Source: Arabidopsis thaliana (Eukaryota > Streptophyta > Magnoliopsida > Brassicales > Brassicaceae). Taken from it: 64,000 nucleotides of DNA. The stretch is taken from the NCBI RefSeq assembly GCF_000001735.4, contig NC_003071.7, positions 18,575,443-18,639,442 on the forward strand. The letters are read 5' to 3'. Shown piece by piece: positions 29,183 through 35,586 of the stretch; within the stretch, counting starts at the first letter, position 1, and every line of letters begins with the position of its first letter. The position numbers were made by a program, and so were the translations under genes. The notes beneath the pieces are model-generated. The model saw only the letters and a list, made by a program, of their open reading frames with translations, did not search any database and was not told the origin of the DNA.

Positions 29183-30750
29183 AAACGAAAGGTAACAACA
29201 GACTTTGCGTGATTCGGGTTGTCAAAATTATTATTCTTTGTTTTTTGGGGTTTGATTACTTTTATGTTAATGCAAAGGAGGCTACTTTTACATGTTCTAA
29301 CGCCAAGTTGTTTCAGTACTAGCCTCACGTCGTGTTGGCCTAAATCAGAGAGAGCATTCAATTTTCTTTGTTTTTTTTTTGTTTGTTAGACATTTTTTAA
29401 GGTATTCGTAATTGTATCAATTTCTTGGTTTCTCTGGCAATTTTAGGTATTACTGTTTCAATTTAGAAGCTAGAGAAGTAAAGAGTGCCCACTTCATCTA
29501 TCTCTTTCGCCTACTATTAGGGGCAAAAAAAAGAAAGTCAAATCTAAAAAGAGAAGAGAAACAAACTTTATTGTTGCTCTTATAGTTTCTATATCATTTT
29601 CACTGTAGAATCAAATTTGGCCTTTGGCTTTGGGGTTTAAGCTATACCACCTACTTAGAATTATTCTTCACGTATACTTTATTCTTTACTTATGATTGGA
29701 AACATACCCAATCACTAATAATGTTCGTAATCACCACTCAATACTCAATAGATATCAACAAAGTTGTGTGATTCAAAGTTGTTGTGATTGTTCAACTAGA
29801 CTTATCACGCAATAATTTGGTGGGTACTTACTAGGATTGTACAGATTAAAATCATAAATCCATTTTTTGCTTGGTGTCTAATCACTTGGATTTAGTGTTT
29901 ACAAAATATTAGTTATGAATGTCTTTTTTAATAAAATTGTGTCATTCAAGAGTTTATTGGGATAAATTTCAAGAGTTTTTACTTTTTATTTCATGTCAAA
30001 AAGTTGTATATTTCATGCTTTTATTTTTGTCAAAACGTTTAATTTTGATTGACAATTTTTAATTTTATAAGATGGACAGAAACACGTTTTCCAAAAACAA
30101 CAAATGGACATAAACACATTGGGCTTAGCCCATACAAAGTGGATACATAAAATAGAAAAACCAAATTAAATGACTAGAAATAAAAGGACTGGGCCCGAGA
30201 ACGTGAAAGTAAGCCCAACTTACATAGAAGTCCAAAAACACTAAAACTTTCATGTTGTTAATATTTTCCAGTTTGCATTATTTTACACTTATACAAATAA
30301 CAACAGATGCTTGATTCTCTTGGAATCTTCGAATTCTCTGTCTTTAAGACTTTACAAAGATCTCATTAATTACCACTTTAACCCTGAAATCTGGTCACGG
30401 GTCTGGGTCATTTTGGTCACTTTTATCTCTAATCCCACAAACGTACCGGCAAATTCTTCCTTTTTTTTCTGCTCGACGGTCTCTCGAGGACGCGACTCAC
30501 AGTCACATCAACAGCATGCATTCAGAAAAATCAAAAAACAAATGAATTATATGATAAATAAAATTAGTTGATCGAGGAATCAACCTAAATTCTATAGTTT
30601 ATACCTTGACAAAAAGATAGCATGAAATCAGCAAACTCATGTAATATACCAAACATACCATAAAAGGTCCGGTCAAAAATAGAAAAACACGAAAAAGCAT
30701 TATAACTAAATTCAAAGTTCAAACATAAGACTCAAAGAGAAGTTATTAGA
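29183..30750. other. Intergenic region between the C2H2 gene and the SPX3 promoter
   Basis: AT-rich, with no supported gene. TGGGC/GGCCC elements around 30118-30215 are the kind of motif seen in housekeeping plant promoters, but no gene is attached to them on this strand. Confidence 0.45.
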
Positions 30751-32312: not shown

Positions 32313-32578
32313 TGTTGTTGTCACTTTCCTTCGGACAACATATATACGCAATATGACATTATCGTAATTATTTATTTGTAACTCTTTTTCGAATTTTAAA
32401 ACCTTTTGAGTTACAACAACAAATGGGCCTTAGTCCGTCTCTTACAGATAGGCCCATATTGCAACACATAATGACGGGTCTAGAGAATCGCAAAATTAGT
32501 AGCAATTTGTTTGTTACGTTGGTCTTCTTCTTCTTCTTCGCTCGAAACCCTAAACTCGCAAAATTTCGATCATCGGCG
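32313..32578. other. Short promoter between SPX3 and the porin-like gene
   Basis: 266 bases carrying the SPX3 3' UTR and the leader of the next gene. It contains a GGCCCA element (32452-32457), a telo-box-like AAACCCTAA at 32545-32553 and a TTC-rich run before the start codon. The block from about 32473 has a diverged copy at 33700. Confidence 0.6.
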
Positions 32579-33583
32579 ATGTTTTCATTCTTATCCTCTG
32601 TAGGCGATAAGATTGTGAAGATCTGTGAAGGCAAGTCTCGAAAGTTGTCACCTTTATGTTTCCTTTGGAATTTGTCTTGTCTCGAAACAAAGAGATTTGA
32701 TTGATTGTTAAAATCTGGATTCGATTTTGTATTTTGCAGAGTATGGCTACTTTGAAAGAAATGAGGTCAGTAATATCAAAGCTAAAAACATTCAGGGTCT
32801 GGAACTAGAGCTGACATCAGAGCGTCTTCAGGAATATGACTTCAACTCTATCAAATCCACTTGTTTCAATAAAGAGGTGCGTGCGTGCGTGTTATAAGTA
32901 ACATTGACGAAAATTTTCACGATTTTGCTTGCTTGCTTACTCTTTTACTCGTTATTGGTGTTAGATTGGGATCTTGTATAAGCTTAAGTATGGGGAAATA
33001 GGTGCTAAGTTGATATCCAAATCATCCCGTCCTATGGCTCAGTTCACTGGTACTGTTAGACACCTCGGTAAACTCTCTGGTTTGGAACTCACTTCCATGA
33101 GTATTGTTGACATTAACGGACACAAGCTCGATAAGTGGCATGTTGGGCTCACTCTCATTGCAGGGAACGCCTCTGTGCAGATTAGACGGTTAGTAGTTTT
33201 AAAACGTTGATTCCTCCACCTCTTATAGAACAATAAGCATTGTGTGGTGAATTCTGAATATGTTTCCTCTTTGCAGAGAGGCTGATAGATACGTTGTTTC
33301 AACCCGCCATCATATTCACCCGAGATTTGTGTCGCTCACTGAGCTGAGATCACTGTATTTCTGGCGCATATCACTCCCGTCCACTGTGGCGATGGGATTC
33401 GAGTTCGAGCTTAACCCTAGGATAACTCTTGAAGTGATGGTCTCCGAATCCCATCTTCAACCTCCGAGTGTTGCACTCCAATATCAATGTTCAAGGGCTC
33501 AGTGTCTCATTAGAGTTTACGGTGATGTCTACTCCAAAAAAAATGGTGTATCTTTTGCGTTTCGTCCTTCTTCTTTCGTCTAG
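32579..33583 (+). CDS. Divergent VDAC-like (eukaryotic porin) candidate, four exons
   Basis: Exons 32579-32630, 32740-32876, 32965-33188 and 33277-33583 give 239 residues. Intron 1 has a GC donor (AAG then GCAAGT), the usual minor GC-AG type; no GT donor gives an open frame. Nearly the whole protein alternates like beta-strands. Three features suggest the VDAC/Tom40 porin fold: an N-terminal helix VGDKIVKICEE before the first strand, the stretch LPSTVAMGFEF where VDACs have SPSTVVGAE, and a C-terminus with LNPRITLEV, YGDVYSKK and GVSFAFRP set out like VDAC's LDPLTTVKA, SGEVDSKA and VGIALALKP. It is about 35 residues shorter than typical VDACs (about 275). Family assignment is inference by eye; the gene model is firmer. 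Confidence 0.6.
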
Positions 33584-33866
33584 TTACTCGGATTTTTACC
33601 CTCAAATTACTTTTTTTTTACTTGTTGGCCTCGGCTAGTTATTGGGCCAATTGTTTCTATAGTGGGCCGTGTATTACAGACAGACACACCTAAACGACGA
33701 CGGGTCGAGAGGATAAATAAATGGGAATATTCTCGGAAACATTGATGTGATTCCAAATATTTTATTCCCAATTTGGTATTCTTCTTCATCATAGCTCGAA
33801 ACCCTAACTCCCCACTTCCATCGACCATCGACATGTTTTAATCTTAGAATTGTGACCAATAAGGTG
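33584..33866. promoter_or_regulatory. Promoter and leader of the RING gene, diverged copy of the neighbour's promoter
   Basis: Contains GGGCC (33664-33668), ACGGGTC (33700-33706) and GCTCGAAACCCTAA (33794-33807), the last two paralleling elements before the porin-like gene (32473 and 32540). The spacing from the telo-box to AAGGCAAGT is 86 bases here and 88 there. A two-codon uORF (ATG TTT TAA) lies at 33833-33841. Confidence 0.7.
33833..33841 (+). other. Two-codon uORF (Met-Phe-stop) in the RING gene leader
   Basis: ATGTTTTAA, 26 bases before the coding ATG. It aligns with ATGTTTTCA, the true start codon of the porin-like gene at 32579, so it is probably that ancestral start codon after a small indel. 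Minimal uORFs can lower downstream translation. Confidence 0.6.
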
Positions 33867-34950
33867 ATGGATACATTTCAAGGCAAGTCCGAAGGCCTGG
33901 AACCACAATTGGCATCGAAGGATCTTCAGGCGTCGAAGCCGATAATTTCATCATCTTCTTCGTTATCAGAGCGTCGATACAAGAGTGGTACTTTTCTTTT
34001 CTCCAATTCTCGATCATACTTGAATCATATGTGTTTCGTTTTGCTCCGAATTTCTAAATCAATCAGAATTACGTGGTTATGTATGGCTGATTTGTTAGAA
34101 TTATTAGTGTAGCTATAGACCAAGATTTTTTCTTACTCAAGAGTTGTGATTTTCTCTCGCAGGCAGAAAGATACCTATTATTGCTATTGAATGCCGTAGA
34201 TGCTTATCAGTCTCTTCTCCGGTAGTTATTGCCGACCCTTGCATGCACAGATTCTGCGGTTAGGTTCTTCTTTACTCTTTCTTTAACCCACTAGCTAATG
34301 TGTGTGACTGAAAACAATCAGGGTGTTTAGCTTTGTCTTATTTTAACACAAACCCCTGATTCTGGACTAACTTATTACCCTAACAAAATTGTCTTTTTTT
34401 CTTTCTTAATGCAACAGTGAAATGTATCTTATTCCTCTGGGGACGCCAGAAACGTAGAGAACCTTGTGTATGCCCCCTTGATGGAGAAAAGATGATTTGC
34501 TTACATCCTCCTATGAACATTGCCGAATCTGCGGCTGAGGAGATTACTGGCCTTGTCGACGTTTATAATCCTATGTTCAATCCACGCCATTACATGGTAA
34601 TTAATCAGTTCACCTCCTAATCAATTGAACATGCTCTAATATTCTTAGTAAGGGAGTAGTTATTAATATCTTTTCTAACTCTCTGCTTACGAACATTATG
34701 TTGTTTCTTCTTTGAACGGAAAATCATTATGCATTTTTAGGACATGGCCGAGACACAACTTGGTAAGTTCCTTGATATATGCTTTATGTATAGATGTTTT
34801 TAGACTTTGTTTTGTTGAACCTAACTCTTTTAGTTACACGTTTTTTTTGTAGCGCGGACATTTACACGGTTTTACTGTTTGGATCTCACTCTCCTACTCA
34901 TGGGGGCACTTGCGTACTGCTTCAAGTGTTCTAAAGCCTCCCGCACTTAG
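33867..34950 (+). CDS. RING-finger protein with C-terminal transmembrane segment
   Basis: Predicted RING-type E3 ubiquitin ligase anchored in a membrane. Exons 33867-33987, 34163-34258, 34418-34596, 34741-34762 and 34853-34950 give 171 residues. After a Ser-rich N-terminus the RING reads CRRC, CMHRFC, VKCILFLW, CVCP: Cys-X2-Cys, Cys-X-His-X2-Cys-X2-Cys and Cys-X-Cys-Pro spaced as in a C3HC4-like RING, with the final pair altered to C-V-C. The KCILFLWGRQ stretch after the third pair recalls the RNF170 class. A hydrophobic segment near the end (YCLDLTLLLMGALAYCF, about 143-159) is a likely membrane anchor. The first exon matches the neighbour's exon 1, intron and exon 2 in part, so the N-terminus seems to be borrowed sequence. 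E3 activity is inferred. Confidence 0.85.
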
Positions 34951-35586
34951 AAGTCTCTATTTTAATTCTCTTGGAACGACTTTATGAGTATGTTATAATT
35001 AAACTATTTTAATCCTGAATTCTGGTTATGGATCTGTGTCATTTTGGTCAAACTCATCATGTCTTTTTCTCCGATATCCATCCATTCCTAACCTTGTTAC
35101 TATTATCTATCAGTCTTTTTGATAATTAATACAAATGTTGATATGTAGAGTACGACGAATCGTAAATTGTAATAATTGTTTCGTTTTGCTGTAATTTGGC
35201 TCTATCTTTATACATTAGAAGAGATAATCAAAAAAGAGATAAAAATAAAGCCAAAATAAATGTGTTTTTTTTGCGCTGGTCAAAGAAAAAAAAAGAAGTC
35301 CAAATGACAGTTATACCCCTAATAACGCACCATGAGAACTCAGACGATTAAGGGTGTAATAGTAATAACAAGAAGTGAGTCTCCGGTCTGAAACTAATTA
35401 AGGAGACGGCAAGAGAAACAAGACATACGTTTGCTGTCCCACGTTGATCTTGTTGTTTACTCTCTCTCTCTCCTCCATCGGCGACGACCACCGGAGATCA
35501 GCGTCACCGTACCAAAACATCATTTACCTTCTTTTAGATTTGTTGTTTTTTAATCAGTTGAATCGGAATAAAATATCGCATCAGAG
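34951..35586. other. Intergenic: RING gene 3' UTR and PVA12 promoter
   Basis: No gene. A CT-rich leader (35461-35475) precedes PVA12. The rest is AT-rich. Confidence 0.55.

Follow-up and report, generated by a model that had tools for sequence, protein, structure and literature searches.

A RING gene of Arabidopsis thaliana as a probable old chimera of its neighbour's 5' end and an RNF170-like body

Within a 64,000-nucleotide stretch of the Arabidopsis thaliana genome (C2:18575443-18639442; hereafter the window), two adjacent genes, here called P and R, have homologous 5' ends. R, which encodes a RING protein, is probably an old chimera, in which a copied P-type 5' end was joined in front of a RING body related to the RNF170-like family. 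If so, it would be a traceable model-plant case of a gene built from the promoter and first exon of a neighbour and the body of another gene, and a third copy of the same 5' end (T), found in a search of the genome (119,662,809 bases in 7 contigs), would display the likely ancestral form of its head. A previous sequence-only reading of the window had described the 5' end of R as a diverged tandem copy of that of P, and R as a plausible new chimeric gene. The copy and the chimera are supported by our analysis, in which the 5' part of R proved homologous to P beyond shared motifs and its 3' body was assigned to another family, whereas the word "new" is not, because a divergence of about 22% in the shared leader points to an old event.

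The comparison with shuffled sequence that the sequence-only reading had proposed, a local alignment of positions 32400-32900 with 33640-34000, gave a score of 71, as against a mean of 20.5 (standard deviation 2.5) and a maximum of 32 among 1000 dinucleotide-shuffled pairs. None of 2901 random pairs of real segments from the window reached this score (3000 were drawn, and 99 with start indices within 1000 of each other were dropped). The homologous regions are 32431-32832 in P and 33660-33930 in R. The homology of the two 5' ends stands, and its onset, at about 32431 and 33660, lies further upstream than previously given. Each landmark quoted for the two 5' ends was found again, in the order given, with three of them shifted by 1 base (ACGGGTCTAGAGAATC at 32474, GGTCTGGAAC at 32796 and GGCCTGGAAC at 33894), and the spacing from the telo-box to AAGGCAAGTC, as computed from landmark positions, is indeed 88 bases in P and 86 in R.

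Each segment was also compared singly with 2000 shuffles; those of the leader and of exon 1 overlap by about 59 bases and are thus not fully independent. The segment with the TC run, telo-box and leader scored 65 between P and R (null maximum 31), and the exon 1 region scored 30 (null maximum 28, reached by 0/2000 shuffles). Modest significance was obtained for the part upstream of the TC run (score 28, reached by 10/2000 shuffles) and for the exon 2 remnant of R compared with P (score 24, 14/2000), while the same remnant scored 32 against T, a value reached by none of the 2000 shuffles. After the shared AAGGCAAGTCCGAA, R shows no more similarity to the P intron (score reached by 1365/2000 shuffles), as expected if that part of the intron was lost. 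According to landmark positions, R lacks about 154 bp of P-type sequence, which comprise the greater part of intron 1 and 56 bases from the beginning of exon 2. Over leader and exon 1, 150 of 193 aligned columns agree (77.7%), and the 14-mer GCTCGAAACCCTAA has 6 occurrences genome-wide, two of them at this locus.

A protein search with P found, beyond its own exons, one place in the genome, C2:6254406-6254555, with 49% identity over exon 2 (E value 6e-5); the exon 2 proteins of P and T are 51% identical. This place belongs to T, a truncated copy of the P 5' end located 12 Mb from P and R (C2:6254199-6254559, equivalent to L012:4200-4560). T carries the TC run, the telo-box, ATGGATATATTGAAAG followed directly by GCAAGT, an intron ending in CCAG, and exon 2 up to the same GAGGTGCGTG donor as in P, past which similarity to P was not detected (394/2000 shuffles). 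Between T and P, exon 2 scored 62 (null maximum 31, 2000 shuffles) and intron 1 scored 29 (reached by 9/2000 shuffles). The start ATGGATA is common to T and R, and P has GTG at that position; the pattern ATGGATAyATT..AAGGCAAGTyCG of R and T, which P is too divergent to match, occurs at exactly 2 genome places with up to 3 mismatches (0 in a reversed control). By eye, the surroundings of T contain LINE-like (long interspersed nuclear element) and Gypsy-like transposon sequence.

Protein searches with the exons of P and of T returned P and T alone as copies. DNA searches of the genome were insensitive, returning their own place only and missing these relatives, and the absence of more diverged copies is therefore not claimed. 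When the genome was scanned for the pattern of the exon 2 module with 3 mismatches allowed, 52 matches were obtained, compared with 42 in a reversed control, and the 2 matches without mismatch were P and T. The sequences of the next-best two matches (1 and 2 mismatches) were read and found non-homologous; the remaining 48 are close in number to the control. No DNA similarity was found among plasmids.

The third copy also informs the direction of change. The GC donor is the only frame-keeping donor in P (1/9 tried in 32610-32689) and in T (1/5 tried). AAG and the GG(T/C) codon are 59 nt apart in both P and T after splicing, compared with 14 nt in R DNA, and a loss of 45 nt, or 15 codons, leaves the reading frame of R intact. 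The intron-bearing form is found twice (P and T) and the form of R once. The P-type GC-AG intron and exon 2 of T, the equal spacing and the in-frame loss together suggest that the P/T form is likely ancestral and that of R derived. For R, the most likely origin is a P-type 5' end that was shortened by about 154 bp without a shift of frame and joined to an RNF170-like RING body, a polarity that rests on a third copy in the same genome, the one genome compared. As far as genomic sequence can tell, T makes the chimera reading of R well supported. The exon 2 remnant of R and the telo-box of T were aligned pairwise, as a three-way MAFFT alignment misplaces them.

The body of R has a different relationship. 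R matches the RING family PF00097 of Pfam (23.2 bits, cut-off 21), and P lacks a RING. The only other place returned by genome searches with the R RING is a chromosome 1 gene (C1:27158537), which we take to be the RNF170-like gene At1g72175. When the R body was compared with this 7-kb chromosome 1 locus alone, tblastn gave an E value of 1.6e-5 with 27% identity over 60 residues. Both genes have a phase 1 intron at the same position, directly after CxHxFC, and they share the CxxC...CxHxFCxxC...CxCPL spacing and YNxxFxxR after the RING. In the chromosome 1 protein, nine codons separate the start from the first RING cysteine, and R exon 2 has ten codons before its own (split codon included), so that the acceptor at 34163 falls close to the position expected for an original start of the RING gene, which is what the addition of a foreign head by splicing would predict. 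Besides this head, R differs in its last RING ligand: seven of the eight C3HC4 ligands are canonical and the eighth is D in CPLD (34418-34500), as opposed to CPLC in the chromosome 1 relative. CPLD is found in RBX1 too, and zinc binding may therefore be kept in R. Furthermore, the chromosome 1 protein has a long C-terminal part, presumably DUF1232, whereas R has about 42 residues after YNxxFxxR, with no alignment there, and Pfam searches at E values up to 1 returned RING models alone for R. For lack of this counterpart, we term R related to the RNF170-like family and not a full member.

In the proposed mechanism, a copy comprising the promoter, leader and exon 1 of P, the beginning of its GC-AG intron 1 and a portion of exon 2 would have been placed directly upstream of the RNF170-like RING body. 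Transcription of R would use the copied TC-rich/telo-box promoter and its translation the inherited ATGGAT, and in-frame splicing would connect the copied exon with the first RING exon at 34163; the order of these events, the transcription and the choice of donor are what we infer. The two best donors for this acceptor according to a donor frequency table are both in frame. A weak GT at 33988 (1.43) would yield MDTFQGKSEGLEPQLASKDLQASKPIISSSSSLSERRYKSGRKIP... with 171 residues, and the GC at 33883 (0.57) would yield MDTFQGRKIP... with 136 residues, the remnant then falling into the intron. Neither donor appears clearly better. The earlier claim that AAG/GCAAGT is read as codons in R would hold under the long model; under the short model R would splice at the inherited GC donor, equally in frame, and the reading of AAGGCAAGT as codons depends on which of the two donors is used.

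The nearest competitor keeps the same chimera and makes the remnant non-coding: R would splice from GC 33883 to 34163, giving MDTFQG-RKIPIIAIEC (136 residues), with the remnant and the former intron bases inside R intron 1, and nothing would have been converted from intron to exon. We hold this to be a real possibility, somewhat short of an even chance. It agrees with the donor scores, which name no clear winner, and with the identity of AAGGCAAGT in all three copies, whose 9 bases form the longest stretch without any difference in the three-way alignment (pairwise alignment shows the telo-box AAACCCTAA, likewise of 9 bases, to be shared too). Against it stand the rarity of GC donors, about 1% in plants, and the R frame, which is open from 33867 to a stop ending at 34112, so that no stop breaks the remnant. 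GC donors are described as enriched among alternatively spliced genes in human, nematode and Arabidopsis (PMC2490688), which makes the use of both R donors plausible. If the chimera is real, the use of its GC donor should be readable from existing RNA data.

On the + strand of the window, P and R are preceded by what we take to be a C2H2 zinc-finger gene (ATG 28238) and an SPX gene (ATG 31047; SPX3) and followed by what we take to be a VAP27-like gene (ATG 35587). A second duplicated pair of sequences, E and E' (Table 1), flanks SPX3, P and R, E' being located between the zinc-finger gene and SPX3. The two are 74.7% identical over 91 columns (score 67, shuffled maximum 38 in 1000 shuffles), and their 35-base core has exactly 2 genome places at up to 3 mismatches (0 in a reversed control). 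This pair bears on the possibility that a whole block (the RING gene with its 3' end, SPX3 and P) was tandemly duplicated and then thinned, the head of R stemming from a junction within that history and not from a separate copy of the P 5' end. Such a scenario is rather unlikely, with some weight left to it by the position of E and E' on both sides of SPX3, by the two-place core and by a divergence of the pair that is about that of the P/R leader. However, E precedes P on one side and the P homologue precedes E on the other, which no one simple tandem duplication produces, and at the thresholds used the flanks of E and E' showed neither an SPX3 relic nor one of P or of RING coding sequence. 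To arrive at the order E' - SPX3 - P - R-head - RING - E, at least two events would be required, from which we infer repeated rearrangement of the locus. The 10 kb upstream of a VAP27 paralogue on chromosome 3 matched only the 5' part of VAP27; for SPX3, P and R, no E value below 0.09 was obtained in this region.

The Jukes-Cantor distance over the aligned P/R columns is 0.26, which at a substitution rate of 7e-9 per site per year corresponds to an age of the chimera of roughly 19 million years. The true age may be greater, as the alignment favours better-matching columns. Such an age predicts that the chimera is also present in A. lyrata and Capsella.

Copying in the reverse direction, with the RING gene first owning the promoter and start, the P 5' end being copied from it, and intron 1 and the rest of exon 2 being gained later, is improbable. 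The ATGGAT start, kept in R and absent in P, speaks for it, but T carries intron 1 and exon 2 in the form seen in P, the spliced spacing is the same in both, and the chromosome 1 RNF170-like protein begins nine codons before its RING without such a head. Promoters with TGGGCC elements and a telo-box are common in plants, many growth genes of plants are described as having telo-boxes together with Site II elements, and the part upstream of the TC run is by itself modestly significant, yet the idea that two unrelated genes share this type of promoter (with a TC-rich leader) and otherwise agree by chance can practically be set aside, as the shared sequence extends well past these elements, the leader scores about twice its null maximum, the exon 1 and exon 2 segments exceed shuffles in the same order and the 14-mer is rare, all this against a background of shuffles and random window pairs and not of the leaders of other telo-box genes.

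Several points nevertheless weigh against descent of R from a P-type head and an RNF170-like body. The reverse polarity is one of them, being less simple than the path from P-type to R. In genome searches the match of the RING part to the chromosome 1 gene was weak (E values 0.135 and 0.045), and the RNF170-like assignment consequently rests on the local match and the intron position, with one chromosome 1 gene used for the intron and family comparison. Within the 37-bp remnant, each pair among P, R and T has the same number of identical bases (27/37), so that it does not give the branching order of the three. Upstream of the TC run, no homology of the T promoter to that of P or R was detected (236 and 984 of 2000 shuffles, respectively). 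The P/R differences within the remnant have no third-position bias (5, 2 and 3, counted by eye) and hence do not prove coding use. Finally, the 5' ends of P and R are those of sequence models, and their transcripts are predicted.

The start of P may itself have changed. The ATG at its start position heads a short upstream frame in R (MF-stop) and T (MMSSLFRQ-stop), the P frame from that ATG continues through exon 1, and P reads GTG where the presumed ancestral ATG would be (32579-32617, compared with R 33833-33867 and T L012:4283-4314). If R and T show the ancestral state, the P N-terminus MFSFLSSVGDKI may be former leader, a reading that sets two copies against one in an unrooted trio. A more far-reaching and doubtful scenario is that both neighbours remade their protein starts after one duplication: R would have joined a RING body to the old exon 1 and retained the ancestral GC donor as an alternative splice switch between a long and a short head, both in frame, and P would have lost the ancestral ATG and made the mini-ORF (open reading frame) and leader coding.

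The spliced P model has 239 residues. The name "porin-like", under which P had been introduced in the sequence-only reading, has so far no sequence basis, as the searches gave no support to an identity as eukaryotic porin (VDAC, PF01459). P matched no Pfam family at E values up to 10 (HMMER filters on), its best chain in PDB was an unrelated protein (E value 1.1), and a genome scan with PF01459 gave 14 matches, none of them at the P locus. On a hidden Markov model of four VDAC last exons from this genome, P exon 4 held rank 282 among the 862 sequences listed, when run with 1000 of its own shuffles (1001 given).

By position and type, R is taken to be AT2G45135, which PMC6908731 names as a RING/U-box superfamily protein next to AT2G45130, SPX domain gene 3. 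In Table 1 of that paper, on phosphate-starvation genes, the two have near-equal induction (log2 3.473 for AT2G45135 and log2 3.428 for SPX3), which could reflect shared regulation, read-through or probe overlap. Among 5.39 million papers searched, it was the sole one found with AT2G45135 in its text. In the present model of R, exon 4 has merely 22 bases.

Table 1. Features of the P/R locus, in positions of the window
Feature	Position	Strand	Basis or remark
Gene P	32431-33583	+	Pfam and gene model
RING gene R	33660-34950	+	Pfam and gene model
P promoter and leader: TC run, telo-box GCTCGAAACCCTAA, TGGGCC element at edge; homologous to those of R	32431-32553	+	alignment
P exon 1: opens at the ATG that is an upstream ATG in R and T; GTG at the position of the ancestral ATG	32579-32630	+	
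P intron 1, GC-AG (AAG/GCAAGT), 109 bases	32631-32739	+	donor/frame test
P exon 2 (YGYFERNE...GLELELTSERLQ...)	32740-32876	+	
P exon 3	32965-33188	+	modelled from splice signals and open frame
P exon 4 with stop; no recognised family	33277-33583	+	
R promoter and leader, diverged copy of those of P	33660-33807	+	alignment
R upstream mini-ORF (ATG TTT TAA), at the place of the present P start	33833-33841	+	
R exon 1, long model: MDTFQ, GKSE (putative former intron start), GLEPQLASKDLQ (exon 2 remnant), linker	33867-33987	+	
R exon 1, short model: inherited GC donor at 33883	end 33882	+	
Exon 2 remnant in R	33894-33930	+	27/37 bases as in P, 27/37 as in T
R exon 2: first half of RING	34163-34258	+	intron position and phase as in chromosome 1 RNF170-like gene
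R exons 3-5 (34418-34596, 34741-34762, 34853-34950), to stop	34418-34950	+	rest of RING, then C-terminal stretch hydrophobic by eye
E: 12 bases past R stop, presumed 3' untranslated region	34962-35050	+	second copy is E'
E': copy of R 3' flank, beyond SPX3	30311-30419	+	

Chimeric genes are a known kind of event, and R is an unusually traceable case, believable and not unprecedented. We found no earlier report of the R chimera in literature searched by locus names and by kind of event or motif, supplementary files lying outside this scope. Chimeric genes formed through tandem duplication are described in Drosophila yakuba (PMC5460883), where, as proposed for R, such a duplication unites the regulatory elements and exons of one gene with sequence of another. 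The cases described there come from a population sample with RNA data, whereas R is about 22% diverged in its leader and known from its DNA. In A. thaliana itself, EXOV is described as a duplicate of the 5' end of EXOVL (PMC8824575) and resembles R in being a partial duplicate of a gene's 5' end. Compared with EXOV as presented in that paper, R adjoins its parent, is older, and would be fused to the body of a different gene.
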